Shown here piece by piece: positions 3,664-58,801 of a stretch of DNA of 64,000 nucleotides (its first letter is position 1; each line of letters begins with the position of its first letter). The DNA is taken from contig CM060105.1 in the NCBI GenBank assembly GCA_030522415.1, positions 17,415,277 through 17,479,276 of the forward strand, in the 5' to 3' direction. This DNA comes from Channallabes apus. Lineage: Eukaryota > Chordata > Actinopteri > Siluriformes > Clariidae. Under the pieces are notes generated by a model, which saw nothing but the letters and a program-made list of their open reading frames with translations, ran no database searches and was not told the origin of the DNA. A program made the position numbers and the translations under genes.

Positions 3664-3778
3664 CTATACGCAGCCTGAAGTCATTGAAGGAATGTCTATT
3701 AATAACATCAAGTTTCCCAACCAGTGCAAAGGCGAACTCGACCAAGGTTCCAATGTGCATGTACTGCCGGTCGTGGTC
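3664..3778 (-). CDS. ADCY2: ADCY2 E21, C2a domain
   Basis: The exon is 115 bp, with acceptor TTGTAAG before 3778 and donor GTAAGG from 3663. It encodes [20 protein letters not shown] and then [18 protein letters not shown] plus one base. In mammalian ADCY2 this is the C2a stretch [20 protein letters not shown], which carries the G-beta-gamma-binding region named QEHA (family knowledge). The QEHA residues themselves are not conserved here. The next exon is outside the window. Confidence 0.92.
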
Positions 3779-6700
3779 CTTACAAACAAAACAAGATTCA
3801 AATTTTGAATCAAAAGATACAAGCAGATCTGAGACAAAAAAAGAATGAAAACAATCTTTTTATATGTAGGAAAATATCTGAAATGTTTTGAAAATATGGA
3901 TCTTGATATGATTTTGCCGCTAAATTACTTTATTCCTAATGTTCCCCGTGCTTGAGGACTTGAAGTAAACTAGAACAGAACATTCAGCACCAAGGACAGC
4001 AGCACCAAAAACATTTTAGAAAATGTAAGAAAGAAATGTTTGGGAAAAAAAAGGAAGAAAAGCCCACCTGTGTGTAATCCTGTCCAGGAGGAATGTTTAG
4101 TCCAGTAGCAGCCATGTAAGTGCTGCCAATTGTCTTTATCTTCTCCACACCACTGAACTTGGGTTTGGAGAGCAACTGGCAATGAAAGAGATAAGAAGTG
4201 GAAATTATAAAGTTTCTGGAAACATCCGTTATTGTTAGACAAAATATAACAACTTATACTGTATGTATAATAGAATGCATATCTCTGCCATAATTGCAGA
4301 AAGCTGTGTGATATAAAAGGCACATCATTCCATGAGATTAACAAAGGAGAAAATAAATGATTATTATTATTATTATAAGAAAGGGTATTGTGTGCTTATC
4401 CGGTGTCATTCAAAATGTTTATTGTTCTATTATAGCTTAATCATTATTATAGCCGAGACCAAACTAAACGATACAGAAGAGCAATTAAATCTTTGTGGAA
4501 CTTATTAACTGCTCGCTCACAGTTAATAATGAGACTCGGAGTGAGTCCACGCTTGTACTGTAGGATGAAGCAGTTTAAGATATACGTAAAAACAAACAAA
4601 CTGATGTCAACTGTTTATGTTAAAACATAAATACTTAGTGTACTGCTAGTGCCTAATTAGAGCGATAAAGGTTATTATTTTTTACATTAGACACATTTAG
4701 ACTGTTCTATCGTTTTCACAATGCATTCAAAAATAAACCTGTCTTGCTTCACTCTTTTTTATTAATAATTTTAATACTAATTTTAATCAGGCTTAAAATT
4801 GTGCAGATATTTATTAACCAATAGTTGGACATGTTAACAATTAATAATCATTTAGTTGTCATTTTATAATGGTAACAAGATGCACATAATTTTTTACTTG
4901 AGTTTAAGTTTAAAGGTTTTAGCTGAACACTTCCAAAGAGTAAATATGTGAGGCAAATTAATGAAGCCCCCCCCCCCCCAAAAAAACAAACAAACAAAAA
5001 ACAAAAAAACAGGACAAATAATAATAATAATAATAATAATAATAAACAATTGACAATTGAAAATTGTCGCTGCTAAAAATAATGCGTACAATAGATATCT
5101 AAGATACTGAGAAGTCTCACGCAAAACAAACATTATCACTTAGAATTTTTAACAGTGGTTAATGATTAATTATTAACATCCATTTTAATAATAATATTTC
5201 TCTCTGATATTACTCCAACTTAGGTTCTTATAATAAAAAAATAAATAAAAAATTCCAGTTTCATTCACAGTAAAACTAGCTTGTGATCACTGACGGTAGC
5301 TCAACTCCGCCGAAATCATTTCTCATTTAGTGCTTCAAATCGTAAATTGAAGATGAAACTGACATCAGTGAGATATACAGGCTTAAAATTGTGCACATAT
5401 TTATTAACCAATAGTTGGACATGTTAATCAATAATCATTAATTATTATTTTATAATGGTAACAAGATGCACATTATTTTTTCTTAAGTTTAGGTTTAAAG
5501 GTTTTATCTGCACACTTCCAACAAATTGAATATATGAGACAAATTAATGAAGCCCAAATAGTAAAAAAAAAAAAAAACTGAACTAATAATAATCATAATA
5601 ATGATAATAATTAAAAAGAAATTGACTATTGAAAAAAAATAAATTGTCCAATACTGCGTACTGTAAGTGCACCCCCTTGTGGTGAACAAGTCAATAGATA
5701 TCAAAGATACTGAGAAGGCTAACGCAAAACAAACATTATCATTTAGAATTTTTAACAGCCATTAATGATTAATAACATCCATTTTAATAATATATTTTAC
5801 TCTAAAAATATTACTCCACCGTAGGCTGTTATATTCGTTTACAGAAAATATTCCAGGTTCATTCACAGTAAAATTAGCTAGTGATCACTGACGGTAGCTC
5901 GACTCCGCCGAGATCATTTCTCATGCAGTGCTTCAAAGCGTAAATTGAAAATGAAACTGACATCAGAGAGATATACAGCGAGCGGGATAAACGTGTGTCA
6001 ACAGCATCCTGTACCTCATCAAAATCCGCTATAATCTCATTGAGGAGCCTGAGACACTCCAGTCCCTCCTTGTTCACATCCGACTCTGTGTAGAATTCCT
6101 TGAAGTCCGGGATGGAGGCGAACATGACACACACCAGATCGTACGACTGGTGGTAGAGATCCTGGGGGAAGCAAAAAAAAAGGTATTATCAACAGATGTG
6201 AGGATAAGATGATGGGGGTACGGTGACGATTATTTCACGAGGCAGCACTAATGCAAAATCGGATTTCCTTTGCAGTGTTGCATAATCACGCTGGAAAGCC
6301 ATCATATTGGCTTTATGCTATAGATGTCATGTCCAACTGATGAGACAAAAATAAACATGTCTTACTGTATGTCTAACATCTCAGCATTAAAGAATCGATA
6401 TTATACTAAGTACGGTATGTTGTCGCCTGTCATGATCTCACGCACCTCGTTCTTCCAGTTTCGACCGAGGAAATGCTCCGCCACGTGGGCAGGAAGAACG
6501 TTCTCCAGCAGCACGCGGTTCAGGTTCTCCATGGTCTCGATTTCCTCACACTCCCGCTTGAACTTGTTCCTCCACAGGAAGTCTAACCTACAGTAATATT
6601 CATTCTGTTACAAGAAAAATAGAGACGACTCAATACACACCCATTAATTCTATACAGTACATTGGTGACCTTTACTGGCATATCGGGGCATCATTGCGAA

Positions 6701-7211
6701 CAAACTACATCAGACTCAGACTTTAAAGGTCAGTGCTGTAATTGGTGGTTGAGTTCTGCTCTGGTTGTGCACCAGAAGTCTGTTCCTGCCCTTTTTTTTA
6801 TATATATATTGGCACTCCGTTCCTAATGTCATGACATTATGTTTGATTCATACTGTTTGGTTTTCTGCAACAATGGAATGGATTTGGCAACTAGCATGAC
6901 TAGATTCAGAAGGTTGAATGTGTCTGTTTTGAATTTGTATTACAATTAACTTATCAACAAGACTGTTACCACGGTTGTCCTGATTTAGGCAGATTTAAAT
7001 CTGTTAAATGGCTGTGCTTTGTGGAAGGATGTCTTCATTAGCGTGAGAATTGTGACCCACCTGCCTCGCCAGGACAAGCAAAGTGATGAAGAAGATGAAG
7101 AGTGAGGCAGAACCCATTGTCTTCAAGTCTTTTAGAACACCGGGTCTGGCAAAGACAAGTAAAGAATAAAAAATCTGTAAAAAAAAAAAAAAAATATATA
7201 TATATCTATTA

Positions 7212-7305
<94 letters not shown>

Positions 7306-9809
7306 AAGTATCTTTTGTTTTAGCAGGTTGACTGAGATTTTTTTCAAAACTGCCTTGGGTGGCTTTGATGGATGTGCTTTTATAAGTGCCCGGGTCAGCA
7401 GAGTAATATCAGAGGAACGTATCTACATAGGACTTTGCTGGATGCTGTCAGGCATCTCTGAGTCATCTGGACTGACAGTGCAGGAGAAAGGTAGGAGAGA
7501 TTGCCTCCAGTGACAACATCTTTCTCTGCAGTTAACCTACTAGAACAAAGTACATCCAGGAAATGAAAGAGTGACTAGTGAAGTTAATAGTGAAACACAC
7601 AAACAAACAACAAAAACTCAACATGTTTATGAGTCAGTTCCAGAAGGTATATAAATGAGTTGCACTAGACATCAAATTCTTTCTTATCTCATGTTTAACA
7701 GACTACTTTCCATTGAAATTCCATTGACTTACATTTATCTCATTATACAGTTCATCAGAGCTGAGGGTTAAGGGCCTTGCTCAAGGGCCCTACAGTATTA
7801 TCTTGGCGGTACTGGGGTTTGAACCAGTGACCTTGTGAACAGTAGTCCAACCTTCAGTTCTAACATCACTAAACACATGCTTTAACTACTGTGATTATAA
7901 CATGATGCTTCATAAGTAATGCTTGTTGTCTTACTACTGTAATTCACTCAGTCACTCATCGTCTAGACCGCTTTATCCTGTACACAGAGTCGCGGGGGGC
8001 CTGGAGCCTATCCCAGGAGACTTAGGGCACGAGGCGGGGTACACCCTAGACAGGGTGCCATTGAATGTGTACTCACATACACATTCACAGACTACGGAAA
8101 GTTTGGGAACGCCAATGTGGGAGGAAAATCACCAAGGAGAACATGCAAACACAGAGATGGGAATCGAACCCAGACCCTGGAGGTGCAAGGCAACAGTGCT
8201 AACCACTACACCACCATGCCACTGTAACTTTAAAACATATATAAAAGTTGATTCTCCCAGCTGAGGAAACAATATGCATACTGCATAATTCAGCATACTG
8301 TGCAGCCCTTTACATTTTAATACAGTTTAGTGTGGATGCATAGCGAAATATTATACACATAGTATCGTGTAAGCAAGCACATAGTGTTTAGTCAAGTGTT
8401 TAGTGATCCTAGACCTAATTTTAATGAAAACTGAAACATGCTTGTCTGGTTATTCTTTATAAATAAATAATGTCACATTTCGTGACTACAGTTTTCCTCG
8501 CTGCTCAATTCCACCTCTCTAACTGTTATATTCTCATAGAGATGTCCATGTCCACATCAAATGTAGTTCAGCATGGTTTCCTCTAGGGGCGTCGAATCTG
8601 GAAGCGATCCACAGAGATCATTTTAATCAAAGAAAATTAACACCAACCACAAACAAAACCACACGTGTTAGCCTTTGATCTTCATCTGTAGTGCTTTTTT
8701 TAAAGGGTAGGCAGTTGGGACGACCTTGTCAAAAGCATGATGATATGGTCACTTAAAAATGTTTGTGTTGATTTGAATGTACATTTGGATCATTGTACCA
8801 ATCGAGGATCCAACCGATTGTCAGTTGCAGCTTTTGGCAGATTAAAAAAAAAAAAAATCTCTTGAAGTCCATGTTGCTGTTTATCCCATCAGGAACATGA
8901 TGTCTTTTAGAGGATAAACAGACTGACAGTATCACAGTTACATCAGGATGTCTAACAGTGTGGAGTAGCCGGCACTTTTCTGTGTATCCATCTCTATTTT
9001 GCTCCATCTGGGTTCCAAAAGCAAAAATGTCTTGCAATCCAAACAGTTTTTAAATTCGAGACTTGTTTGACCCTAAAGGATCTTGCCAAACTCTACCTGT
9101 CAAACCTAGGGAGAAATATTTGCCTCACTATCGCTATCACGCAGTCCCTAATAAGAATGAAGAATGCATGGTATTTAAACAGTGAGGACGCTGGAATTCG
9201 TTTGGGGCAGTGTGTATGTGTGCTTGTATAGTATTTCACGTTTTTCTATCAAGTATATATATTGTGTGATCTAGGCATATATATGTTAGATCACTCATCA
9301 GTACTGTATGTGAGAGGCAGTGTTGGGGGATGTAACTTTTTAAAGTAACTATTTACATTACAAAATGACTGTCTTTAAAACGTAATCAGTTACATTACAG
9401 CGTTACTTTCTAATAAAAGTAACTAGTTTGAGTACTTTTCTGTTGCAGAAAATGAAAACTGCTTTGTGATTCCTCATGCATATTGTTTAATTATTCTACC
9501 ATCATCACTCAGCCAAGTTTGGCCCATAATCTGTTAACTACTAACAGCAAGAATTAACAGAGGGGGGCGGGTTATCAGGGGCGGGGCTTGTAGGACAATT
9601 TTCATACACACACACACTAATGGAATCACTGCTGTCTGGCTCATGGATTGCATAAATTGCCTAAATACCGAATTACATTTTTGAAAATATAAAAAGAAAA
9701 AAAATGATTACTTAATTGGCGGACCTGACGCGTTAGATTACTCGTTACATCAAAAAAGTAATCCAGTTACTTTGTAACGCGTTACATACAACACTGGTTA
9801 GAGGTTTGA

Positions 9810-9842
<33 letters not shown>

Positions 9843-10023
9843 CCTGAGACATAAACATTGCAAGAGTAATTTCTCTCAATCTGGCAACTTATGCCAAAAT
9901 ATGCAATTATTCATTCATTTATTTATTTATTTTTAGAGATTGTAGGTACTTATCCAACATCTTATAAGCATCCTCTTTAGGATTCGGATTTTGATGTTTT
10001 GTTTTGATTAGGCTCTTTTAAAA

Positions 10024-10054
<31 letters not shown>

Positions 10055-13000
10055 CAGTTTTTCCTCCTGGAGGAGTCCGTACAGCCTTTGAAACATCAGA
10101 ACATCAGCCAGTAGTGAGCACAGAGACAATGTTCAGAAGTATTTCAGTTTTGTTCAGAATGTTTTGGATTGTTTTAAACTATGCCGTCCCTCGTGGAGTC
10201 GGTGGACTGGTGGATTGCTTCCTGCTGCACTGCCACTTCAATTGTCAGCTTTGATTTTTTTGAAACGGAAGACATCCTGAACACTGACGGTATTCATAGC
10301 GCTAGTGCACTTCGAGTACCGTCGAACCGTTACGTGAGCTAAAAAAATAAATAAAAGGAAAGTAGAAAGCAATGACGACGGACCGACAGAAGGAAATTGG
10401 AAAATATTTTCACGTGTGGTCTGGCTTAAATGAAAGCAGTTTGGATTGGACGCACAGAATCCCACGGCTCTACCGCCGGTAAGCTGAAAACAAATCAATT
10501 GAGTGCAATCCATAATAAGCCTGCTATCTCAAAATCTGTCGCTCATGATCCTTTTTTTTTTCGGCTTTTTCTGTTACCTCCTTTGGTAAATTGTCTCAAA
10601 CAAACTTTGGTTTTCTGTCTCAACTCAGTGCTGATGTGTGCGTGTTACTTTTTCCACAGCTGGGTCGTCCTGTACTCCTATTACCTATTACAGCCACACA
10701 CATATAACTCGTTTTCGAGTTTTCGTATAATAACTTTTCGTATTGTTGCCGCGAAAGTTTCGCAACGCGCGAGTTTCCTCAACTAAACAACTAAACAACT
10801 AAAACTCCGACACAGAGGTACGTTATAATGTCTACCGTTCAGCTTGTTCAGTGTGTAGAGTGCAGGATGTTTAGACATTCTTCCTCCGTCATTAGCGATA
10901 ATTTTATTTGTGATAGGTGTGTGTTAGTGAGCACTCTGACGGAGAAGATATCAGCGTTAGAGGAGCGCATCCAGACTTTAGAGAGGGTTAGAAAGCGCGA
11001 GAGCAGTGTTATTCCCGTAGCCGACAGTCTGGGTGCCACAGGCGGAGATAAACAGCCCCCGACTCCGGCATTAGAGCCCTCACAGCGGGGCGAGTGGGTG
11101 ACGACTCGGCGGCATACTCGTTCAGCCAAAGCTAACGCTAAGGCTAGCCCACCGGAGCACACCTCCTCTGCGCTTCACGTGTCCAACAGGTTTGCTCTCC
11201 TCAGTGCTGCACCCGCTGAGAAACCTGAAAGAGCTCTGGTTATAGGAGACTCTATACTGAGACACGTGACATTAGCTAGACCTTTAGGGGCGCCAGCGGC
11301 AGTGGTTAGGTGTATCCCGGGAGCCAGAGCACCGGACATAGCAGGTAATCTTAGGGCTCTAGGACAGCACAGGTTCTCTAAGATAGTGGTACATGCTGGA
11401 GCTAATGATATACGCCTTCGTCAGTCAGAGGTTAGTAAGAGTAACTTTACAGAGGTGTTTAAATTAGCGAAGGCGATGTCCGATGAAGTAGTATGCTCTG
11501 GTCCCATCCCAATGAGACGTGGCGACATAACTTACAGCAGGTTATGGTCGCTGAACCGCTGGATGTCCAGGTGGTGCTCCGAAAATAATGTGGGCTTTAT
11601 AGATAATTGGAAGACCTTTGAGGGCAAAGCTGGCCTGTTAGGGCGGGACAGTGTCCATCCCACTCGGGAAGGTGCTGCTCTCATTTCCTGTAGTATAGCT
11701 CATAGTCTCAGTAGAGGTCTAGTTAATCTGTGACAATCCAGAGCCCAGGCCAGGGAGCAGACAGACAGGCTAAACCAACCGTCTGCTAGCTGCATAGAGT
11801 CGTCACTCAGGGTTCACCTTATTGAGACTGTGTCTGTTCCCCGATCTAAGCAAAAATGTAGAAAGACTCAGAAAGTCTGTTTCAATCATTTAATTACAGT
11901 GGTGTGAAATACTATTTGCCCCCCTCCTTATTTCTTATTCTTTTGCATGTTTGTCACACAAAATGTTTCTGATCATCAAACACATTTAACTATTAGTCAA
12001 AGATAACACAAGTAAACACAAAATGCAGTTTTTAAATGAGGGGTTTTATTATTTAGGGAGAAAAAAAATCCAAACCTACATGGCCCTGTGTGAAAAAGTA
12101 ATTGCCCCCTGAACCTAATAACTGGTTGGGCCACCCTTAGCAGCAATAACTGCAATCAAGCGTTTGCGATAACTTGCAACGAGTCTTTTACAGCGCTCTG
12201 GAGGAATTTTGGCCCACTCATCTTTGCAGAATTGTTGTAATTCAGCTTTATTTGAGGGTTTTCTAGCATGAACCGCCTTTTTAAGGTCATGCCACAACAT
12301 CTCAATAGGATTCAGGTCAGGACTTTGACTAGGCCACTCCAAAGTCTTCATTTTGTTTTTCTTCAGCCATTCAGAGGTGGATTTGCTGGTGTGTTTTGGG
12401 TCATTGTCCTGCTGCAGCACCCAAGATCGCTTCAGCTTGAGTTGACGAACAGATGGCCGGACATTCTCCTTCAGGATTTTTTGGTAGACAGTAGAATTCA
12501 TGGTTCCATCTATCACAGCAAGCCTTCCAGGTCCTGAAGCAGCAAAACAACCCCAGACCATCACACTACCACCACCATATTTTACTGTTGGTATGATGTT
12601 CTTTTTCTGAAATGCTGTGTTACTTTTACGCCAGATGTAACGGGACACGCACCTTCCAAAAAGTTAAACTTTTGTCTCGTCGGTCCACAAGGTATTTTCC
12701 CAAAAGTCTTGGCAATCATTGAGATGTTTTTTAGCAAAATTGAGACGAGCCTTAATGTTCTTTTTGCTTAAAAGTGGTTTGCGCCTTGGAAATCTGCCAT
12801 GCAGGCCGTTTTTGCCCAGTCTCTTTCTTATGGTGGAGTCGTGAACACTGACCTTAATTGAGGCAAGTGAGGCCTGCAGTTCTTTAGATGTTGTCCTGGG
12901 GTCTTTTGTGGCCTCTCGGATGAGTCGTCTCTGCGCTCTTGGGGTAATTTTGGTCGGCCGGCCACTCCTGGGAAGGTTCACCACTGTTCCATGTTTTTGC

Positions 13001-16000
13001 CATTTGTGGATAATGACTCTCACTGTGGTTCGCTGGAGTCCCAAAGCTTTAGAAATGGCTTTATAACCTTTACCAGACTGATAGATCTCAATTACTTTTG
13101 TTCTCATTTGTTCCTGAATTTCTTTGGATCTTGGCATGATGTCTAGCTTTTGAGGTGCTTTTGGTCTACTTCTCTGTGTCAGGTAGCTCCTATTTAAGTG
13201 ATTTCTTGATTGAAACAGGTGTGGCAGTAATCAGGCCTGGGGGTGACTACAGAAATTGAACTCAGGTCTGATAAACCACAGTTATGTTATTTTTTAACAA
13301 GGGGGGCAATCACTTTTTCACACAGGGCCATGTAGATTTGGAGGTTTTTTTCTCCCTTAATAACGTAAACCTTCATTTAAAAACTGCATTTTGTGTTCAA
13401 TTATGTTATCTTTGACTAATAGTTAACGGTTTTTGATGAGCAGAAACATTTAAGTGTGACAAACATGCAAAAGAATAAGAAATCAGGAAGGGGGCAAATA
13501 GTTTTTCACACCACTGTAACATAAAGACCACAAACTCCGATCATACTGAATGCGCAGCCGGCACCTCTGATCTGAAGCTAGGATTGTTAAATATTAGATC
13601 TCTCGCATCAAAAGCAGTTATTGTTAATGAAATTATCACAGATCAGGCGTTTGATATACTCTGTTTAACTGAAACATGGGTTAAACAGGACGAGTATGTA
13701 GCTCTAAATGAAGCTAGTCCTCCTGGATACAGCTACATACACCAGCCTCGGTTAACTGGTAGAGGAGGAGGCGTCGCAGTTATTCATAATGATAATCTGT
13801 CTATCGTACAAAAACACCGACACAAATTTAACTCATTTGAAATTCTCTATAGTAACATAAGTGTATTTAAGTATATTAAATCAGCTCAGTCGATTCCACT
13901 AATTATAATTTACAGACCTCCAGGGCCGTATTCTGAATTTCTTAGTGAATTTGCAGATTTCATCTCAGACCTGGTCATTTCTGTAGACAAAGTGTTAATT
14001 GCTGGAGATTTTAACATTCATTTTGAGAATCCAGAAGACCCTCTGAGAACAGCATTTATGTCCATACTGGACTCCGTAGGTGTAAATCAATGTGTAGTAG
14101 GACCCACTCATAAAGCAGGTCACACTTTAGATTTAGTAATATTCTTCGGATTAATTATAAGAAATGTATTCACAATTCCACTGTCAGAAATTATCTCAGA
14201 TCACTATCTTGTCTCCATTCAAGTGTCTCACAGTGATAATGTACGCACAGTACCGCGCTACCGTATTAAACGTACATTCACATCAACTACCACACAGAGT
14301 TTTATCAGTAATCTCCCAGAGTTACCAACTTCGATTAGGCCACCGTCTGACCCCACAGAACTTGATCAGGCGACTGAATATTTAGAGTCGACACTTCGTT
14401 GTACCTTAGATAATGTAGCTCCAGCTAAAAGAAAAATTATTAGAGATAAGAAACTCGCTCCCTGGTATAACGATCACACGCGCACTTTAAAACAGACTGC
14501 TCGGAAATTAGAGCGTAAATGGCGTCAAACTAAATTGTTGGTATTTCAAATAGCATGGAAAGAGAGCATCCTGAACTATAGGAAAGCTCTTAGTGTAGCT
14601 AGATCAACGTATCTCTCCACTCTTATAGAAGAAAATAAAAATAATCCTAGATTTTTATTTAATACCGTAGCCAAATTAACCAGAAATAAGACCACTACAG
14701 AAATCTCCACAACAACATCATGCAATAGTGAGGACTTCATGAACTTTTTTAATAATAAAATTGTAAATATCAGGCATAAAATTGAGGCTTTGAAACCAAA
14801 CAATGTAATTGATACAGATGTTAACCTAGCCATGTCAGATTCAAACCTAGAATACTTTACTCCTCTTGAAGAGAATGAACTAATTTCACTCATCTCTTCT
14901 GCAAATTCATCAACCTGTATATTAGATCCTATACCGACACATTTTCTTAAACAGATAGTACCAGTAATAACAGAACCGATGTTGAGAATAATTAATTCCT
15001 CACTCAGCATTGGTTATGTTCCAAAATCTTTTAAAGTAGCAGTTATTAAACCAATAATTAAGAAACCTGACCTCGACCCCTGTCAGCTGTCCAATTACAG
15101 GCCAATATCAAACCTCCCCTTTATCTCTAAGATTCTGGAAAAGATAGTAGCGGAGCAGCTATGCTCATATCTACATAGAAATGGCATACATGAACTGTAT
15201 CAGTCAGGATTTAGGCCTCATCACAGCACAGAAACAGCACTCGTTAAAGTAGTAAATGACCTCCTATTGGCCTCTGATCAGGGTTGTGTAACTATGCTTG
15301 TATTACTCGACCTCAGTGCAGCTTTTGACACTATTGATCATGCTATTCTTCTTCACAGATTAGAAAATGTAGTAGGAATTAAGGGTACAACCCTCTCCTG
15401 GCTCAGATCCTATTTGACCGATCGTTATCAGTATGTAGACTTAAATGGTGATTATTCTGCATGTTCTCTAGTGGAGTTTGGCGTTCCGCAGGGTTCAGTT
15501 TTAGGCCCACTGCTTTTTTCCCTTTACATGCTTCCTCTGGGCAACATAATCCGTAAGCATGGTATTAGTTTTCATTGTTATGCTGACGACACACAGCTAT
15601 ACGTCTCAACAAAACCTGATGAGAAAAACCATCTTACTAAAGTTGAGCAATGTGTTCAGGATATAAGAAATTGGATGCTAATTAACTTCCTTCTGCTTAA
15701 TCCGGATAAGACAGAAGTTCTAGTCATAGGACCGCATACAGCTAGAAGTAAAATCTTACATCACACCGTAACTTTAGATGGCCTTTCTGTTCCGTCAAGT
15801 GCAACAGTAAAAGACCTCGGCGTGATTATAGATTCCAGCCTTTCATTTGAAGCTCATGTAGATAATATCACCAGGATAGCATTCTTTCACCTTAGAAATA
15901 TCGCCAAAATAAGAAATATATTGTCGCTAAATGATGCAGAAAAACTAGTTCATGCTTTTATCACTTCTAGGTTGGACTATTGTAATGCCTTACTGTCTGG

Positions 16001-17994
16001 TTGTTCAGTTAGGTGCATAAACAAGCTTCAGCTAGTCCAAAACGCAGCAGCGAGAGTCCTCACTAGAACCAGAAGATATGAGCACATCACCCCTATCCTA
16101 TCTTCACTGCATTGGCTCCCTGTGAAATTTCGCATTGATTTTAAAATACTACTCTTGACATATAAAGCATTAAATGGTCTCGCGCCGCAGTATCTGAGCG
16201 AACTGCTAGTGTCTTACGATCCGCCACACCTACTTCGGTCAAAGGATGCAGGCTGCTTATCAGTACCGCATATTATGAAAACTACAGCTGGGGGCAGAGC
16301 TTTTTCTTACAAAGCCCCAAAATTATGGAATAGTCTTCCAAATAGTGTTCGGGACTCAGACACAGTCTCAGTGTTTAAGTCTAGGCTAAAAACCTATTTA
16401 TTTAACCAAGCATTTTATAAATAGATTTGCCATAAGGTAAAGGAGCAGAGCTGGGGGACTCATGGACGTAGAGTATTATGGTGAACTGGTATGTTTAGAT
16501 GCTGTCTTCCTCAGTCTCATTTGATCACTCAGGTTTGTTGACGGTGAGGTGATTGTTTGCTTTACATCTCAGGGAGCCCTCATGTTTGTGTTTCCTTCTG
16601 GCTCTCCCTTTTAGTTATGCTGTCATAGTTAGTCCTGCCGGAGTCCCTGCTTGCACTCTACAGTAAATATACATTCACATTAGACATTGTGACTGTGACC
16701 ATACCTAATTGCAATCTCTCCTCCTCTTCTCTTCCTCCCCCTCTTTCTCTTTCCTCTCTCCCCCTGTCTCCCCCTTTCACTCTTTCTCTCTCTCTCTCTG
16801 TCGAGCTACACATGTGGTTCCTGAGCTGCCAGTGATCCAGACTCCCTCTGCCCTCCGGACCTGTCTGATCCATCCTGGTGCCCCGTTTCTGGTTGGAGGT
16901 CTCATCGCATGGATGCCCCGTGTGTCTCTTTAGGATGCGTCAGGTGTCTGGGGATGATTCTCTATACTTAGAAGATGGTTCTGGCCTCGACTGGTGTGGT
17001 CAGCTGTTTCTCTGAGGACTTGACAATTCGATAGTTCAGGACTGGAACTTTCTACAAGTCTATCTGAGTCTCGAATAACTACTGGACTCCATTTTACATC
17101 AAGTATTATAACATCAATTAACATCAACTATTATAGCTGAACCTAACACTTAACACTGTATAAATGCAGATCATTTCCTGCTATCTGTTTCACCCAGATG
17201 AGGATGGGTTCCCTGTCGAGTCTGGTTCCTCTCAAGGTTTCTTCCTATTACCATCTCAGGGAGTTTTTCCTTGCCACTGTCGCCCTCGGGCTTGCTCACC
17301 AGGGACTATCTGAACATTTTGATTCATACACATTCACATTCCATACAAACTTAAATAATTCTTTTGATTGTGTAAAGCTGTTTTGAGACAATGTCAATTG
17401 TTAAAAGCGCTATACAAATAAAACTGAATTGAATTGAATTGAACTGTACTCGTCCATCACGGTAGCATGGGTCTGGAATATGATGATGTTGTAGGCCACC
17501 ACAGCAGCCAACATGATGACCATCTTCAGCTCGTAATTGATCCTCAGGAAGACGGAACAGGAGACCAGACCCAGGATGCAGCTGTAGATGAAGTACTGCA
17601 AGAGAATGAAGTGCATTTCTGAAAATCGGAATAACGAGGTACTCAGACAGACAGCGTAAACACCACTGAGAGAACTTCAACCGAGTGGATCCAGAGGTGG
17701 TTACAGTACAGTAGGTGTTCTTTCTGGATGTTAGAGTACAGACTTAAAGAAATACTAGAAAAAGGTACAGACAATCTGGGAAGTCGAAACTCACGGCACA
17801 GTTCTCTTCTATATATAGTTTTGAAAACTTTCCTGACCTGAAATATGTCTAGCACAACTTTTATAAAAAATATACTAGCTGTCAAGAACTGGAGCATTGT
17901 GAACATCGTGACAGCCTGTATCCCATTACAAAGCGAGCTGATTAGGATTATATCCGTGTAGCTGTGGAGCAACTTGATCAAAGCGCGACGTTCG

Positions 17995-18029
<35 letters not shown>

Positions 18030-21000
18030 AGAACTCTTTAGAGAGACTGACTGCTTTTATCCCTGTGTTTTCTAAACTACCACTTGAAAACATGATTTCT
18101 GCAAAATAAGGCATAAAAAAAAAAAGGTAAACACAACATTCAACATAATTTTGTTGAAACGTATTCATAGTCTCCTAAAGTAGAGACGTCGAGGTTCTGT
18201 ACAGGTATGTTTTCCGGAGTTCATCTGCAAGGACATTTCATGTGACTATAAAACGCAATTTTCAAACTGCAGCTGCTCCACAGTAATTGCAACATACTTT
18301 TGACGCACATTCTGAGAGGAAATCGTATCTGCTCCTAGTCTGCAGAGTTGGAGGTAACTTTCAAAAACTAGAGCAAACCAGTTAAAAAAAAGGAAGATTT
18401 AATGCTGGCTAAACTGGTAATATCTATCCATCCATATATACATTATGTATACCCTTTATCCTAAGGAGGCACACAGAGAGCCTTTAATCTATCTCAGGGA
18501 ATTCAGAGTACAAGATGAAGATAATCCGGTCCAGCCACCCAAAAATTTTAACAACACTATGATCACAATTTTTTCATATAAAAATATGTTGGGCCCTTGA
18601 GAGCCTTTGTTCAAGAGCCCAAAAGTGGTGACTTGGTGGTCATGGGGTTTGAACCTGGGACCTTCTAAACTGTAGCCCAATGCCTTAATCACTGAGCTGC
18701 CCCCTACACAATCAAAACATTTAGAAAAGACATAATAAATAAATAAATAAATAGACATTAAACCTGAAACCATGAAAGTGGCTCCCTTTTTTTTTTTTTC
18801 TTGTTACCGTCTTTACTAAAATTCTTGAGACCCACAGTACGTCTTCACTATATCTTGCACCAAATGCAAAAAACCCCACAAAAAAACCCCGTAAACTTGC
18901 TTTGCTTGGATTTCCACTGACATGAATACGTTTTGAATGACTCCCGGATGGACACACAACTCGGTTTGTTCGCTCGTATGGTGAAAATGCTTCATATGCC
19001 GAGGCAAATTTCTTGCAAAATTGAAAAGGTTTTAAGGTGAAAAATTGTTTGTATACCAAGGTACCACTGTATATTCTGCATAATTTTATCATTCATTCTT
19101 TATACCACTTAGTTTGTTCAGGGTCGAAGTAGACTTAATAATGATAATATATTAAATTATTTGTCACATGTGAAATGTCTTCTTCGCATATCCCAATTCG
19201 GAAACTAGGGTCAGAGCGCAGGGTCAGCCAGCGTACAGCCCCCCTGGAGCAGATAGGGTTAAGAGCCTTGCTCAATGGCTCAACAGTGACAACTTGGCGA
19301 TTCTGGGGCTCGAACCCCCCGACCTTCCAATCAGTAACCCACAGCCTTAACCGACTGAGCCACCTTTGCCAAAGTTAGACTTGAAGTAGACTGCCGAAGT
19401 AGACTTGGAGCTTATCTCAGGGATTAGGGGTACTAGGTGGGGTACATCTAGGCAGGGTGCACACTCAGTGTGTACTACAGTCAATTTGAAAATGTCAGCT
19501 GGTCTACTCCTCATATCTGTGGACTGTGGGACAAAACCAGAGTACCTGGAGGAAACCTATTAAGCAACAGACCCAAAGATGGGACTCGAACCCTCAACCG
19601 TGGAGGTGCGAGGCCACAGTGCTAACCACTACACCCTCTCCGTTCCACCCACGCATTTATACCTTAATGTGAAAATACAGTATCTTTGGCTAAATTATTC
19701 ATTTCAGAAGTGTTTATCATGATCCGTCCATTACTTTATGCCGTCGGAGTTTCATTATACTGTAAGTAGGCCTAACAATGAAAAACAAACTTCCTGTCCT
19801 TTTCTCAGTATTCGCTCAACACACGCGCAGCTATAAATAAACCCTGTTTACTTCTGCATTGTGCTGATTGCCGTGATGACACTAATAGCTGAGATGTTTA
19901 TTTCCATAAATTGTACAGAAAGCATTTCTGCTGTGAATGATTTCTCCTACTGACCTGCACCTTTTTAAAGCAGCTGGAAAATGAGGTCATGCCCCTCTTA
20001 AAAAAAAAAAAAAAAAGGAAAAAGCCTTGTATGGACTCACTGATGAAACCCCTTTTAAAAATGTTTTAGATCTACCTTTAGAATAAATGTAATGTTTATT
20101 ACAGCCCTGGTCAGTGTCAAAAGAAAATGCATTCATGATTTTGAATATAAAAGCAGCAGGGTTTAACTCAGGAGCGGGCAGGCACATTCTTTATTTTTGA
20201 TGACGATCTAAGAGCACTTGCACGGTTAAATGAACATTTCCTCATTACTCATGGCTTACCGATTAAACTGCAAAAACAGATCAGTGCGCTATGCCGAGAA
20301 ACTTTTTGTAACACAAAGAGCACCATCATTCTGCATTAATATCAGCTTTGCTTTCATCAAAAAGCATCTGTGAAGCACGACTAGGATGTGACTTTGAGAA
20401 TAAAACACTGATTTATACGGTCCATTTTTTCCAAGATGAAGAATTTTCACGCTCTTAACAATAAAAGACGGGAATATAAAGAGCTTTACAAATGAAGCAA
20501 AGAGAGAATGAAACGTAATGGCTACGGTTAAAGCGGGGACAAAAACTAGGAGGACAGGATGTCCGAAAGGAAATGAGCTCCATTCATGTTTGATCCATTT
20601 GTATCATGACCCGTTGAGCGCTGGAACATCTAAAAGGCGCTACAATGCTCATTCTCGTTCTGTCCTTAAACACAGTCGTTTCTCTTTTCTCTGCTTGGCT
20701 ACAACAAAAGCCTGAGGGTTCAAGGGTGTTCGAGGACTGGAGCTGAAAGCTTAGAAATCAATAGCAGAACTTCCAAATCAATCCCGAGGCACTGCCACTG
20801 ACGTGATCTCAGCAGTACTGCTGCAGAAGAAAAAAATAAAACGCTCTGGGATTTGAAGTATTATTTAGTTTCTAACAGCACTACTGTATATGACGTGCTT
20901 TTCCAGGATCCAGCTGTGTCGTTCACTTTGTTGTGACTTCTTGGTGATTCACATCCTGTTGCTTCAAATTAAATAGAACACACAAAGGCTTGGGGCGGCA

Positions 21001-24000
21001 CGGTGGCTTAGCACTATTGCCATGCACCTCCAGGTTCTGGGTTCAATTCCCGCCTCTGGTCTCTGTGCATGTTCTCCCCATGTTTGGGTACTCCGGTTTC
21101 CTCCCACTGTCCAAAGACATGCAGTTTAGGCTAATTGGTGTCCACAAATTGCATGGAGTGTGTGAATGTGTGTGTGCCCTGCGATGGATTTGGCAGATGC
21201 CCTTGTCCAGAGCGACTTATATTTTTATCTCATTATACATCTGAGCAATTGAGAGTTAAGGGCCCAACAGGGGGAACTTGGTGGTCGTAGGGTTTGAACC
21301 GTAGTCTTAACCACTGAGCCACCCTTGACACACCCTATCCAGGATGCATCCCACCTCGTGCCCTGCTGTAAGTCTCCTGGGATAGGCTCCAGGCCCACCG
21401 CGACCCTGTACGAAGGATAAAGCGGTAGAGACGATGAGATGAGTCAAGTCAAGCGAGGTAGAGTAGGCTTTTATTGTCACTTCAACCATATACAGTTTAG
21501 TACACAGTTAAATGAAACAACGTTCCTCCAGAACCAAGCTGCTACATGCAACACCATAAATCAACACCATAAATTAACAGAAACTAACCACACGCGCGGG
21601 TGCGTTACAATAATAATAATAATAATGATAACAATAATAAATTCGGAGAACTACTACTAATAATAATAATTATACAGTCCAAAAAGTACCATCATTGAAG
21701 GAGAGAAGAAAATGAAGAATAAATACATATCAGTTTGAGCTTGACATGTTTATGAGCTCTGTCGCTTGATGTCAATGGGCGCCTAAGAGACATAACACAT
21801 TTTTTGGCTTCAGTAGACACACAATACTTCAGACTGAAACACGACTGCCCCCTACAGGTAACGAAGGGCATTTTCACAGCTTCCCGCGCGGATCCCTTTT
21901 CTGAAAACGTGCGTTTTTAAAGGCAAGATCTGTAACTAAGAAGCCTAATTAGCTGGCTAGCTGAGACAGGACAGATTGAAATGACAATATAAATTAACAA
22001 AAAAAAAACTAACTAGTTAACTTAGAGACCCAATTAGCTGGCTAGCTGGGAGTGAGTGAGCAACCCCTGTAACACCCATTTTGGCGTTATTAAACACTGC
22101 AACATTTTCTCATGGGGTGGAGGCAAAATCAATCCCTGAACAAGTTCGCTAACGCAAGCTAGTCAGTTTTGTTACAGTAGCTTGTATACTAAGAACGGCT
22201 GAATAAAATGAGTTTATCTGAATATGTACTCCACAGTTACTCATTAACCAGCAGCGTCGGATTAGCTGACTCATGCAGCTCGCTTAATGGATGGATAACG
22301 TGACAGGATTAGCCTCTGTGATTGAAGCATTCATTACGGTGTCTGTGAAACTACAACTCATCTATTACATCTTTGTATTTCACGTCTTGTACATGATCAT
22401 TCCGGACACAGTCGTAGGCATCTAAAGATTTCTACACAACCAGTTTCTCTTTCGCCAAATCCTTGTTTGGGTACTTTGGTTAGCGTTTGTTATCTACCGA
22501 CACACGTGGACAAAATTGTTGGTACTCTTCGGTCAATGAAAGAAAAACTCACAATGGTAACAGAAATAACTTTAATCTGACAAAAGTAATAATAAATAAA
22601 AATTCTATGAATGTTAACCAGTGAAAGTCGGACATTGCTTTTCAACCATGCTTGAACGGAATTATTTAAAACAATAAACTCATGGAACAGGCTAAGACAA
22701 AAATGATGTTACCCCTAACTTAAGAGTTTGTTGCACAACCTTTTGAGGCAATCACACGATTCCTGTAACTGTCAATAAGACCTCTGCAGCTCTCAGAAGG
22801 TCTTTTGGCCGACTCCCAAGACAACCTGTGCCAGATGCAGCAAAGCAGCCCCAGAACATAACAGCGCCTCCTCCATGTTTCTCAGTATAGGGACAGTGTT
22901 CTTTTCTTGATATGCTTCATTTTTCCATCTGTGAATATAGACCTGATGTGCCTTGGCAATAAGTTCCATTTTTGTCTCATCTGTCCATAAGACATTCTCC
23001 CAGAAGCTTTGTGGCTTGTCAACATGTAGTTTGTCATATTCCAGTCTGGCTTTTTTATGATTTGTTTTCAACAATGGTGTCCTCCTTGGTCGTCTCCCAT
23101 GCAGTCCACTTTGGCTCAAACAACGACGGATGGTGCGCTCTGACACTGATGTTCCTCGAGCATGAAGTTCACCTTTGGATCTCTTTAGAAGTCTTTCTGG
23201 GCTTTTTTGTTACCATTCGGATTATCCATCTCTTTGATTTGTCATCAATGTTCCTCCTGCAGCCACCTACAGGGAGGTTGGCTACAGATCCTTGGATCTT
23301 AAATTTCTGAATAATACAGTATGTGCAACTGTAGTCACAGGAACATCTAGCTGCTTGGAGATGGTCTTATAGCCTTTACCTTTACCGTGCTTGTTTACCA
23401 TCTCCTGAGACGACTCTTTCCTTCGCTTCCTCTGGTCCATGTTGAGTGTGGTACACACCATGTCACCAAACAACACAGTGACTACCTGGAGCCCTTTATA
23501 TAGGCCCACTGACTGATTACAAGATTGTAGACACCTGCTAATTAGTGGACACACGTTGAATTAACATGTCCCTTTGATCACATTATTTTCAGTCTTTTCT
23601 AGCGGTACTATGATTTTTGTCTAGGCCTGTTCCATGAATTAATTTTTTTTTTAATAATTCCATTGAAGCATGGTTAAAAAGCAATGTCTGACTTTCATTG
23701 GTTTACATTCATAATGGTTATTATTACTTTTGTCAGATTAAAGTTATTTCTGTGACCATTGTGAGTTTTTCTTTCACTGACCGAAGAGTACCAACAATTT
23801 TGTCCACGTGTGTAAATAATAGATGAAGGCAGAAACCTGAGCTTAAACAGTAATGATGGTAACGCTAACCAATGCTCATCATTTCTCGACAGAAAGCAAA
23901 GCAGCAGAACCACAGAGGTACACTACACAATGCCATTCAAGGATTCAGGCTACGTTCGCATTAGCAGCGACTTAATTCAGATTTTTTACTCTAATAGTGA

Positions 24001-27000
24001 CACAGAGCAGATTTTTCTGGGCTGTCTCAAATGGAAAATGAAAAAAGTCTTTATTCGTCATATACACGACATTTCCGTTTACTTGTAGGCATTTGGCCGA
24101 CACTTTTATCCAGGGTGACTTACACAAGTGCTTTGAAGTCAACATCAATGGATAGATCCTTACACTGGGTTACTATGTTACTAAATAAGTACCATCAGTA
24201 CCAAAAGTGTTATGGGTGACCTAAATATCTAAGATAATATCTTAGTCTTTATTGTCTTTAGAAAATACACTGAAACCAACAGAGGCAGATGGGTGAAGGT
24301 GGGGCTTGAACCCCCACCCTTCTGATCAGTAACCCAGAGAGCCTTAACCCACGTCACTGCCACTGCACTGAGATCAGATATACTGTATATCCCGTAACCT
24401 GTAATGCAACTTGAATGAGAACACGCAGCTCAGAATTCAAGCGACATTTTGCCTCTTTGCAGGCCATCGGTCAGAACCTCAGAACCAGGAGTGTGGGAAT
24501 ACCATAGCAGTGCTGGCAATATCTGCTAAAACTACTAAAGCAATGCATCTGGCTTTCTTCCTTCTTCTGCACATCAATAAATACAGCTGAATAACTGACT
24601 TGCAAAATCCCAAGCACAGCCTTTCTTAAAATAGCATCCATTGTTTCAAATGAATGCACATTCACACAAATATGATGCATTTGAACCCAGATTGTCATGC
24701 ACGCCGTTTTAGAGGACAGACCCGCCCACATTAGAGTCAGATAAAAGTATAGAGTCAGTTATAAAAATCTGATCATTGGAAATGTCAGACAATTCTGACA
24801 ATTGAATTGAACAATGTCGCTTGTAAATTATGGTACCCCTAACTTAATAGTTTGTTGCACAACCTTTTTGAGGCAATTACTGCGATCAAACGATTCCTGT
24901 AACTGTCAATAAGACTTCTGCAGCTCTCAGCAGGTATTTTGGCCCACTCCCAAGACACCCTGTGCCAGATGCAGCAAAGCAGCCCCAGAACATAACAGCG
25001 CCTCCTCCGTGTTTCATGTGAACGTAGCCTCAGTTAAATCACTTAAATCCTATTCCTCCTAATAACTTGTAGACACATATCTATGTCTACAACGAACCCT
25101 ACTTCATTTCATATTTTCACATTTTGATGATCGCCTTAGTTAAATCATATGGCCTTATGGAAGGTCACTCCATTTGCATTAATTTTTTTAATGGCAGTGG
25201 CAGCTGGTTTGTGATACAACTTCAAGTTAGAGTGATCACTCCTCCCATTTCCGTCTCACAGCAACACCGCAAGATATAATTTTTTTTCGGTAGCTGATTA
25301 TCCCGAAGAGATTCTTCTCTGCTTCCTTTTTGCCTCCAGCTACAACCGTGATGTAATCAATTAACAAAACTGTCCAAGCACATTCATTTCCGTTGTCATT
25401 GTGGAATATTATGTGCAGAATAATGAGGGAAAAAAATGATTCGAATCTAATTTAAGATTAGCGTGAAACATAACAAAATGAGGAAAATAAATAGACAAAG
25501 TGTCTGAAAGATTTTGGGCTTACTGTAATTCTCCATACCGGGATGTCTCATCCTCTCACATGCTGTATTATATACACATCTCTCATTCATTTGTACTTAT
25601 ATTACTGTACAGTATACTAAAGCTATACCACTAATAAACAGTAGTTTAATCATTTCCATGATATTCTGAGCGTTAATTTGCAGGTTTTTATTCTAACACA
25701 GGAAAGATTTCTTGAATTAGGCAAAACATTTCATTTTCATTTCATTAATTTCATTTCATTTCATCTTCTATACCGCTTTATCCTGTATTTAGGGTCGCGG
25801 GGACCTGGAGCCTATCCCAGGAGACTCAGGGCACGAGACAGTGTACACCCTGGACAGCGTGCCAATCCATCGCAGAGCACACACACACACACACACACTC
25901 ATTCACACACTATGGTCAATTTGGGAACGCCAATTAGCCTAATCTGCATGTCTTTGGACTGTGGGAGGAAACCGGAGTACCCGGAGGAAACCCACCAAGC
26001 ACGGGGAGAACATGCAAACTCCATGCACACAGAGATGGGAATCGAGCCTGGCCGGGGATCGAACCCGGACCCAGGAGGTGCATACCACTACACCACCATG
26101 CCGCCCTAGGCAAAACATGAGAATGATTTTACTAAAGTAAAGACTCTCCAGGACGAAATATCAGCACTCAACTATAGAGTCTCTTTATATAACATTCTCG
26201 ATAATATTTCCAGCTCCTTTTTATACTCTTGGGTTTGTGCCTGAGGTATGTGGGTATGTGGACAGTCTACTTCATTTCAGCCCACAAACTATCCACAGGT
26301 TTCAGATTTGGAGACCTACTATAGTTGGCCAGCGCGAAACACAGTTTCCGTGGAGGTTTTTTGGAGGTACGCTTGCATAAAAGATGAATATACAGTCCAG
26401 GCATACAGTAACCTCCTGGCAGAGGAAACCATGTTTTGGGCTGAAAAATCTTGATTCCTTTCAGAATTCATGATGCTATCACTATTCACAAGAGTCTCTG
26501 AACCAAAAAGAACAAATGTGTGTGTGGCTCATTTTTACGAAATTGAAATTTACTAGTTGACCCATTTTTTCTCCCTCCTTATCCTACTCACTCTACTACT
26601 GATTTATCATCCGAGCATCCTTCTGCTGCTCAAGTTGTATTATGATCCTGGTTTGACTAATGCTATTTTTTAATGATTAAATGTATTTTTAAACACATGA
26701 TCAGTTTGTCCAGGTCAACAACCATCTGTCTCGTTTGACTTAAAAGCTCTCCAGGAATGGCTGATAAAGAGGTTTTACATGCCTGCATCTTTTTTTCCCC
26801 CTTATCTGGCTTGTTACATTTACATTTAGGCATTTGGCAGACGCTCTTATCCAGAGTGACTTACAATTTTATCTCATTACACATCTGAGCAGTTGAGGGT
26901 TAAGGGCCTTGCTCAAGGGCCCAACAGTGGCAACTTGGTGGTTGTGGGGTTTGAACCTGGGATCTTCCGAACCGTAGTCCAATGCGTTAACCACTGAGCT

Positions 27001-28938
27001 ACCCCTGGCCCTACAGCTTGTTATACTGTACACTGTTAAGTTAAGTTAAACCTTTATTTGTCACATATACAAATAAATTGGATCGCCAATCTTCTGATCA
27101 GTAACTCAGTGCAATAACCCCCTGAGCCACCACTACCCCTGCTTGGCCAAAAAAGAAAAGAAAAGAAAAAGTTGCACACCTTGAGATTTTGTTGGATCGC
27201 CTTACGTACACATTTACCCTGGAATTGTTTTACCAACCTGATGCAATGTTAAAACATTTACTTCTGTCTGAATTGACTTGTTTTTTTGGCATCTTGTACT
27301 AATGATTGCAGAGTCAAATTATTGTGTAAAGACTTAAAGGTTGGAACAATGTGGTGTCCAGTTCATGTGTGAAAATGACTTCCTCTCCGTAATATTCCTG
27401 TTCCATCGGGGAAGAGAAGCTCCATAGATGTGATAACCCGGTCATTCAGTACATTCAGGTCGTCTGCTGACTTTTTGAATTTTATTGCCACATACTGTAA
27501 CGTTGTTGAGTCTCGACCTGAGCAACTGAAGCAACTCCAGATCATAACACTGTCTCCAGAGGCTTGTACAGTCGACACTATGCATGATCGCTTCATGCTC
27601 TTCCCTCCTCACACCCTGACACGCCCATCACTTTGGTATAGAGTCATTCTGGACTCATCAGACCACATGACCTTTTCTAGTCCAGAGTCTTTAAGCTCTC
27701 GCCAACAAATAGTGTTCTTATGGACACTTATGGAGTTTTTGTGGAAACACTCTTACGTTAAATATTAAACAGGATTATTACATAACCAAGTAGTTAAGCC
27801 ATTCGTGATTTTGTTTACAACCACTTCACATCACGTTTTTTTTTCTATTTATCACTATCCCTCCAGATTTTAATAATTATTCGGACAGTTCTAAACATAA
27901 TTCTAGTAAATTAAATTTTCGACTCCTTTTGTTTTCTTTTATTCATACAGGCTGTTTAAGAAATAGCTACAACTGTATATCAGATAGCATTAAAAAGAAT
28001 AGATGCAGCTGAAACATACTGTATAGATCACAGCAGGAATTGTTCGGTTAAAGGATTGTAAGTATTTGCCTATTAAATCCAACTGATTTTCCAACAGTAT
28101 TTATAATATGAATAATAAGAAAAACTCACTGGCAAGTAGAACTTGTCTGAGGACGGAGTGGTTTGGCCACAAACACCATAGGCCGTCTCATTGGAGATGT
28201 TCACTGCAGGCACTGTTGTCACCTTGTGGTCCTCTAGAAAAAACTGGGCACCAGGAAGTGGCGAACACGTCACATTTTTAGATCATTTACAGCGCTAATT
28301 CAAAGATAAAATGCAGTCATGATAATTATGTTTTATTAATAGCAGTCGCAAAAAGCCTTAAGCAACATTTGAACAAACTTTATATAACAAAGCTTGCATG
28401 CACATGTAATCACACACACACACATACACACACATACAAAATGTGCTAGGACCTGAGATCTGATTAGAGTTCAGTGTGTTGGCCCGGAGGAGCAGGACAC
28501 ACAAGGCAGCGTGATGAAATTAACCGGTTATCATGAATAGTCCGAAAAAAAAAATCTCTTCACTTTAACCTGATAGCTTTGCTTTCTCACTCAGCGATAT
28601 CGAGCGTGGAATAATAAGGTGTAGCTGAGTCATAGAATTTATTCGAATTTTATACAAGTAAGTAGACATTTTTTTTTTGAAAGAGATCACTTTTTATTTT
28701 AAAAAGTCTGCAAATATTTTGGGAAAAAAAAAGTTGTTAATGATCTTGGCTTGTCATATAATGCAGTATGAGATAAGGAAAGTTCTGAGCTATTTATTTC
28801 TTAGATACAGTGTAGAGTGTGTATATGTGTGTGTTTGTGTGTGTGTGTGTGTGTTTGAGAAAGAGATCTAAATTTAAAAATAAAATAGATGTGAGTCTTC
28901 CAAGGAAGACATGTGTCGCCTGCCCACTAAACAAGCTT

Positions 28939-28970
<32 letters not shown>

Positions 28971-34900: not shown

Positions 34901-35188
34901 AGACTTCAACCTTTGAATTTTGTCATTCTGTTGGCAGATTATTGCCTCTTTTTTTTTTTTTTTTAGAAATAAATGCTTAAAAAATGCAATGTTTTTTTTT
35001 TATCATTATTATTATTATAGTGAGTAAAGTGCCTAGGAATAATGATGTATTAACCTTATATTAGATTTATTGTATGCTTATATATCATTTATAGACTTCA
35101 AGCTCTGAATTTTGTTATTCTGAATTTTTTTTATTATAAATAAATGGTTATATACAATTTCTATTATTATTATTATTATTATTATTAT

Positions 35189-35220
<32 letters not shown>

Positions 35221-47200: not shown

Positions 47201-47312
47201 GTACATCATCTCACTCTATCGTCTATACCACTTAATCCTATGCAGGAGGCCTGGAGACTTTGGACACGAGACGGGGTACACCTTGGACAGGATGCCAATC
47301 CATTGCAGGGTG

Positions 47313-47353
<41 letters not shown>

Positions 47354-47749
47354 GGGCAATTTGGAAACGTCAACTAGACTAATCTGCATGTCTTTGGAAT
47401 GTGGGAGGAAACTGGAGTAACTCTGAGGAAACCCACGATGCACAGAGAACATGCAAACTCCATGCACACAGAGATGGGAATCGAACCCGGACCCGGGAGG
47501 TGCAGGACGACAGTGCTAATCCCTAAGCCACCGTGCCGCCACTGTCTTGTATATTTTTGGTAAAAAATGGTACTAAATAAGTTTGTTAGAAATGATTGCA
47601 GGCAGGTGTGTGTGAGGGATTCAAAATTAGGGTTAAAAAAACATAAATAATAAATAAATAAACAAATGAACAAACAAACAAATAAATAAATAATAATAAT
47701 AAGACCCTTTACAGATTATGACATTGCACGGCTGTTATATTGCTTGGGC

Positions 47750-47823
<74 letters not shown>

Positions 47824-48540
47824 CCCTCTGTCATCTCTACTTGAGACCAAATATGGACTGAAGTTGATGACTGATGAAACTGTTGAAGCTGGCTTTTTTT
47901 TTTTTTTTTTTTTTTAAAGAGAGAGAGATTTAATGAAGTTTATTTTCCTTATATAAAAAACTTCTGATTCCCCTACCGCATGCGTGTCAAAGGCCGGACT
48001 TGGTGCTACTCTTGCTCTCGGCAGAATCTACACTGCGTACAACAGGTCAATTTCTATTTTCAAAAGCATGAAAAATACTCTTTTGCTCATTTCTAGGATT
48101 CTTATGTGCCTGCTAACAAGCAAGAAAAACCAAATGTGAGAAAAACTAGACTAGTGCATTGACTTCCAGATGCCAATTGATGTAAAACTGCCTGAAACAA
48201 CCAAAAAGATAAAGAATAAAAAAAAACCTTAAAAGATCAAATTAAAAATATGTACACACCGTGCGTATCGGATTACGGCTATCAGCACCAGCACTGGTTG
48301 AGCATTTGAGCAAGAATTTTCACCCTCAATTGCTGAGATACTGTACAATTGGGCTTCGAACCTGGAATGCGACTTGATACGAAACCATTTCCAAGAACCA
48401 AGAAACCCATGGCACGTAACCCTTAACTAACCTTAACTACCAGATACATATGATGGAATTATGTCACACCCAGTAAGTGTACAGATGTTCAAAAGAAATA
48501 AATAAATAAAAAACATTGGCACTTTTTTTAGGAGTGTCCC

Positions 48541-48594
<54 letters not shown>

Positions 48595-48784
48595 ATTCAC
48601 TATGGTCAATTTGGGAGCACCAATTAGCCTAATCTGCATGTCTTTGGACTGTGGGAGGAAACCGGAGTACCCGGAGGAAACCCACCAAGCACGGGGAGAA
48701 CATGCAAACTCCATGCACACAGAGACGGGAATCGAGCCTGGCCGGGAATCGAACCCGGACCCTGGAGGTGCAAGGCGACAATGC

Positions 48785-48816
<32 letters not shown>

Positions 48817-54084: not shown

Positions 54085-54127
<43 letters not shown>

Positions 54128-58769: not shown

Positions 58770-58801
<32 letters not shown>

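Follow-up and report, generated by a model that had tools for sequence, protein, structure and literature searches.

In the genome of the catfish Channallabes apus, a LINE breaks up coding sequence in exon 16 of adcy2b, an adenylate cyclase gene; we regard this exonic insertion as clean and confirmed. The explanation that we favor (probability about 0.85) is that the LINE entered the exon by target-primed reverse transcription and was later hit by a Tc1 transposon, and that the resulting allele is null or nearly so, with its sister gene adcy2a possibly covering for it. A CR1/L2-like LINE would have inserted antisense to the gene, creating an 8-bp target duplication, and a Tc1 element would later have jumped into it between ORF1 and ORF2. 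Transcripts of such an allele would either take in 144 nt of LINE antisense as exon sequence or leave out exon 16, with early stops both ways, so that any ADCY2b made from them would be without TM12 and the second catalytic domain; adcy2a may take over the function.

The split exon of adcy2b

The window, meaning the whole stretch of DNA that was analysed, comprises 64,000 bases with no N (C2:17415277-17479276), and searches of the whole assembly covered 1.16 Gb in 93 contigs. Exons were located on the minus strand with a human ADCY2 probe (tblastn), splice sites were assigned by eye, and exon 15 came from a search for open AG-to-GT blocks. The whole gene has 25 exons found on C2, of which the first two and the last two fall outside the window; the exon called 16 here, as in the initial annotation, is number 16 when counted within the window and number 18 among the 25 of the gene. 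With exon 16 put back together, all 22 coding blocks of the model are open, the remaining exons have splice sites, and the four exons beyond the window are also open, which extends an earlier claim that all other exons found are intact. The rejoined window protein has 860 residues, and its best matches are ADCY2b of Clarias gariepinus (98%) and of C. magur (97%; best 120 of 6,009 matches, 7,981 candidates scored). Identity to C. gariepinus 2b (P0001) is thus 98%, against 83% to C. gariepinus type 2 (2a; P0085), and places the gene in ADCY2b.

Features of the window in and around the interrupted exon (positions count from the first base of the window)
Feature	Position	Strand	Basis or remark
adcy2b	3664..63526	-	21 exons in window, 22 coding blocks as exon 16 is in two pieces; tblastn and splice-site model
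Exon 17 (PGVLKDLK...)	7061..7145	-	splice-site model and orthologue alignment
Exon 16, 3' piece, 21 nt, GACGACCCAGCTGTGGAAAAA, donor GTAACA	10649..10669	-	sequence and orthologue alignment
Target-site duplication, copy at LINE 5' end, CTGTACTC	10670..10677	.	exact match
CR1/L2-like LINE with nested Tc1, antisense to adcy2b, short TTGAA-type tail	10678..17443	+	Pfam and copies; 10678-10734 outside all printed alignments with further copies
LINE ORF1, open, GDSL-like esterase	10828..11733	+	Pfam Lipase_GDSL_2, E 7.9e-14
Tc1-type DNA transposon between the LINE ORFs	11897..13516	-	TA at 11895-11896 and 13517-13518; transposase frame interrupted by a stop
LINE ORF2, open, endonuclease and reverse transcriptase	13560..16424	+	Pfam; start chosen within open frame 13479-16424
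LINE antisense possibly exonised with exon 16 via CTG/GTGAGC (296-nt exon, contains stop)	17300..17443	-	donor scoring and sequence
First in-frame stop (TAG) when exon 16 is read into the LINE	17410..17412	-	sequence
Exon 16, 5' piece, 152 nt, including one octamer copy	17444..17595	-	orthologue alignment
Target-site duplication, copy at LINE 3' end, CTGTACTC (GAGTACAG on gene strand)	17444..17451	.	exact match
Weak in-frame candidate donor CGA/GTACAG in the duplicated octamer (exon/GT boundary)	17449..17450	-	donor scoring

Exon 16 begins directly after TTGCAG and ends GACGAGTACAG at 17444, where the LINE tail adjoins it with no donor, just as the initial annotation had described. The 8-bp duplication reported there is likewise exact at both ends of the element. 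Because CTGTACTC recurs in the window (four occurrences on the plus strand and one on the minus strand), its presence alone is weak evidence; what counts is its placement at both element ends. Beyond the second copy come 21 open bases, running from 10669 to 10649, and then GTAACA. If the octamer is taken only once, exon 16 measures 152 + 21 = 173 nt and ends in phase 2, and the start of exon 17, A CCC GGT at 7145, completes its split codon, so that the proposed fit of phase between the two exons holds. The insert that cuts the exon is 6.77 kb long. The native donor of exon 16, AAA/GTAACA, is the weakest modelled donor of the gene at -0.2 (donor scores here and below come from a weight matrix that was not fitted to these data), so that its normal use as the exon end is a prediction of the model.

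The strongest test of the split exon comes from a related sequence outside the window. Counting the octamer once, the rejoined exon matches the annotated C. gariepinus orthologue (P0001, DEYSTTQLLKKPG), with 6 of 7 loop residues the same (TTQLWKK in the window, TTQLLKK in C. gariepinus), and the insertion leaves no trace in the annotated C. gariepinus ADCY2b protein. Within the same genome, the corresponding adcy2a exon passes the insertion point (GAATACAGCACATTCCTATACAAAGACAAGGTCCTGGACAG, followed by GTAAGC), and the next adcy2a exon starts G CCA GGA, which gives the same boundary phase as in adcy2b. The TM11-TM12 loop of the window and of C. gariepinus is four residues shorter than in other catfish; among the 120 database proteins aligned, a few have still shorter loops, which may be annotation errors. 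This end of exon 16 (10649-10677 and 17444-17460, minus strand) is variable among clariids, other catfish having a longer, SMALYKTQPLDR type. Since both insertion-free Clarias species also have the short loop, the shortening is older than the LINE.

The sister gene adcy2a forms a separate locus on another chromosome, C8. Its exons equivalent to 15, 16 and 17 were read directly, and the C. gariepinus adcy2a protein gave 16 rows on C8 over residues 1-1161, leaving about 585-703, 789-795, 866-878 and 1003-1055 uncovered (40 of 383 candidates scored). Stops in some of these rows may be intron run-on, which was checked for exons 15-17 only; as far as seen, adcy2a looks intact. Searched against the whole assembly, exon 16 DNA had two matches, its own locus (100%) and adcy2a on C8 (82%; 2 of 2 candidates scored), and therefore gave no sign of a further copy of this adcy2b exon. 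When the C. gariepinus ADCY2b protein was the query, the listed matches of at least 89% all lie in the C2 gene or in adcy2a on C8, the latter contributing three rows at 91-93%, and no second adcy2b gene was seen among the 41 of 382 candidates scored. A complete alternative exon 16, which the initial annotation had named as evidence that would count against it, was thus absent from both sets of scored candidates. That annotation had also suggested a dispensable paralogue; with no second adcy2b seen and adcy2a on another chromosome, this reading is plausible.

The inserted LINE, its age and its nested Tc1

On its domain features, the insert is a CR1/L2-like LINE. The GDSL esterase in ORF1 is a feature that we take to be typical of CR1/L2-type LINEs, ORF2 matches the Pfam families RVT_1, Exo_endo_phos and Exo_endo_phos_2, and no RNase H family was found in the LINE (Pfam, E<=0.001). 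At the 3' end (17280-17460), neither the UnaL2 stem-loop nor any other Rfam stem-loop family was matched at E<=5. The 5' boundary at 10678 was set by the octamer and the orthologue because the first 57 bases match no other copy in the printed alignments, which begin at 10735 or later; only the copies L016, L021 and L022 reach 10735 (matches of at least 100 bases). With 40 of 460 candidates scored, at least 39 other places in the assembly share the LINE 3' end; three short rows excepted, they do so at 96-100%. From the 42 rows of this search besides the window, 20 regions were fetched. A CTGTA target preference of the family was suspected, but the evidence for it is biased because CTGTA was part of the query, and we do not claim it.

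Several further observations concern repeats. The ORF2 protein is 86% identical over 778 residues to an Anabas testudineus protein (P0123), the best Silurus match (P0121) reaching 73%; such a likeness is compatible with horizontal transfer from one air-breathing fish to another, or with subfamilies that were sampled unevenly. L021 and L022 (C24, 620500-628500 and 197950-205950) are LINE copies in opposite orientation with the same flanks, and therefore indicate a segmental or assembly duplication on C24, and L016 and L017, both on C11, have a common 3' flank. Within adcy2b itself, an Rfam UnaL2 LINE 3' element at 26824-26877 (minus strand) marks a second, different L2-type remnant, and an intron carries a 1.3-kb tandem array at 43635-44948 with periods of 15, 20 and 110 bp.

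The element nested between the two LINE ORFs is 1.62 kb long and has the TA duplication, terminal inverted repeats and Tc1-type transposase of Tc1/mariner transposons. Of the 20 LINE regions fetched for their related 3' ends, nine extend over the point of its insertion, and the site is empty in all nine. This led us to reject the LINE lineage as the carrier of Tc1, which most likely entered this LINE copy after it had landed, or its immediate source. The locus has therefore taken two successive transposon hits, first the LINE and then Tc1, and the LINE allele is not brand new, because Tc1 is already nested inside it.

In its 3' part, the LINE in the window is 0.82-3.02% divergent from the 15 segments compared with it, nine of which lie at 0.82-1.11%. 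Private bases number 9 of 3,920 in the 3' part (0.23%) and 9 of 1,109 in the 5' part (0.81%), or 18 of 5,029 combined (0.36%), a value that is an upper bound because some private bases may derive from an unsampled source. The 3' count used 15 segments from 14 of the 20 loci, the short or mixed L009, L011, L014, L015, L020 and L026 being left out, and the 5' count used nine segments. Other copies have private shares of 0.18-2.08% (3' count) and 0.16-1.19% (5' count); since these span the values of the window copy, it is not unusual. Judged by these counts the LINE insertion is young, in line with the earlier impression that the hit looks recent.

The gene itself carries little record of the event. 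Private residues among the 860 number 14 in the window, while C. magur has 13 and C. gariepinus 2. No excess decay of adcy2b was found, a result that says little either way, since a LINE of this age would leave time for little decay; sequence decay was rejected as proof of a dead gene. Exons 15-17 (blocks 15-18) contain nine of these 14 residues, a share that is rare under even spreading (2.7e-5). We rejected this clustering as a mark of the insertion: in C. magur, 6 of 13 cluster likewise, and the stretch is fast in clariids.

Predicted transcripts and alternative readings

Reading exon 16 on into the LINE is predicted to meet a stop shortly after the junction. The best-scoring donor in the 400 nt behind exon 16, CTG/GTGAGC at 17299, lies in LINE antisense, and an exon extended to it would contain that stop. 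Skipping exon 16 instead would shift the frame, with a stop after 29 residues. In both cases the stop would come ahead of TM12 and C2, and adenylate cyclase activity needs both catalytic halves. The initial annotation had proposed that the allele lacks TM12 and C2 unless exon 16 is skipped. The predicted loss on read-through stands; the exception for skipping does not, since skipping leads to a stop as well, and an in-frame GT within the octamer had been missed. On these models, the adcy2b allele is most likely a loss-of-function allele.

That GT offers a way in which the gene might be rescued. If it served as a donor (CGA/GTACAG), the LINE would leave with the intron and the joined message would stay in frame at the cost of nine loop residues (YRTTQLWKK); if it were paired with the AG of the other octamer, the LINE would itself be the new intron, the frame would again be kept and only two residues (YR) would be lost. 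The loop may tolerate this, as its length varies among fish and the window and C. gariepinus already lack four residues of other catfish, and Introner elements are known to take splice sites from target duplications (PMC9860276). Against this, CGA/GTACAG scores -4.6, whereas the modelled donors of the gene score -0.2 to 8.4, and 46% of the 3,881 minus-strand GTs in the window have an equal or higher score. The two-residue variant would depend on an acceptor whose 20-nt tract has 0.30 pyrimidines, compared with 0.50-0.95 in the 21 modelled acceptors. We therefore consider such salvage splicing improbable. The corresponding idea that the insertion, through an octamer GAGTACAG with in-frame GT and AG, built its own escape is equally improbable. 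It would give a cyclase that lacks nine or two residues of a loop already shortened in clariids, the LINE being part of an intron or serving as one.

Two other readings would remove the LINE from the exon altogether, and both appear very unlikely. A chimeric join in the assembly could have put the LINE into the exon. Against such an artefact stand the 8-bp duplication, which is exact at either end, the collinear exons to both sides and the fit of the coding sequence to C. gariepinus once only one copy of the duplication is counted. Alternatively, the insertion might be intronic, beside an exon 16 that ends earlier, and an alternative start of exon 17 upstream of 7145 does resemble the human loop. 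That start, however, is in phase 0 with no good exon 16 donor by eye, and C. gariepinus has TTQLLKK at this place, not YSLLVFA, while the adcy2a exon extends to LDR/PG. The earlier exon 17 start was thus rejected as being in the wrong phase and missing from the orthologue, and an end of exon 16 at TACAG was rejected because there is no donor there and both the C. gariepinus protein and the adcy2a exon continue past it. The latter comparison also disposes of orthologues ending exon 16 at TACAG, another finding that the initial annotation had named as counting against it, and upholds its placement of the insertion in the coding exon, antisense to ADCY2.

Significance and comparison with known insertions

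An exonic insertion in adcy2b, as preferred here, would make this allele a candidate knockout of natural and recent origin in one teleost adenylate cyclase paralogue. As the sister gene is present, it offers a way to test whether adcy2a and adcy2b are redundant. The eye suggests itself as a place to seek an effect: a zebrafish study lists ADCY2B among the subtypes detected there by RT-PCR (PMC3317642). Polymorphic LINE insertions in the lizard Anolis carolinensis are mostly rare and apparently selected against (PMC5389967), and a segregating adcy2b allele is for this reason a fair guess, though only a guess. A more practical consequence is that adcy2b as annotated from the Channallabes apus assembly may be wrong or truncated. 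Among the published titles and abstract openings found by literature search, none names a LINE insertion in adcy2b.

Insertional mutation of coding exons by LINEs is known from many vertebrates, and the catfish insertion is a new example of this well-known type of event. It shares with the known cases a non-LTR element in an exon, a short target duplication and a predicted truncation; it differs in that the LINE has both ORFs open and was itself hit by Tc1, and in that the host is a fish paralogue whose sister gene is present. The zebrafish element ZfL2-2, of the L2 clade, also produces short target duplications: in wild-type DT40 cells, target-site duplications were reported for 20 of 25 insertions and short target alterations for 24 of 25 (PMC2666801). 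In contrast to those, the catfish insertion is natural and in a genome, and the 3' end of its LINE has no UnaL2-type Rfam match. Unlike Introners, which form a family of spliced copies, the catfish LINE is one member of a general LINE family, and its candidate splice sites score poorly; like them (PMC9860276), it combines an exonic insertion with a duplication that bears GT and AG in frame.
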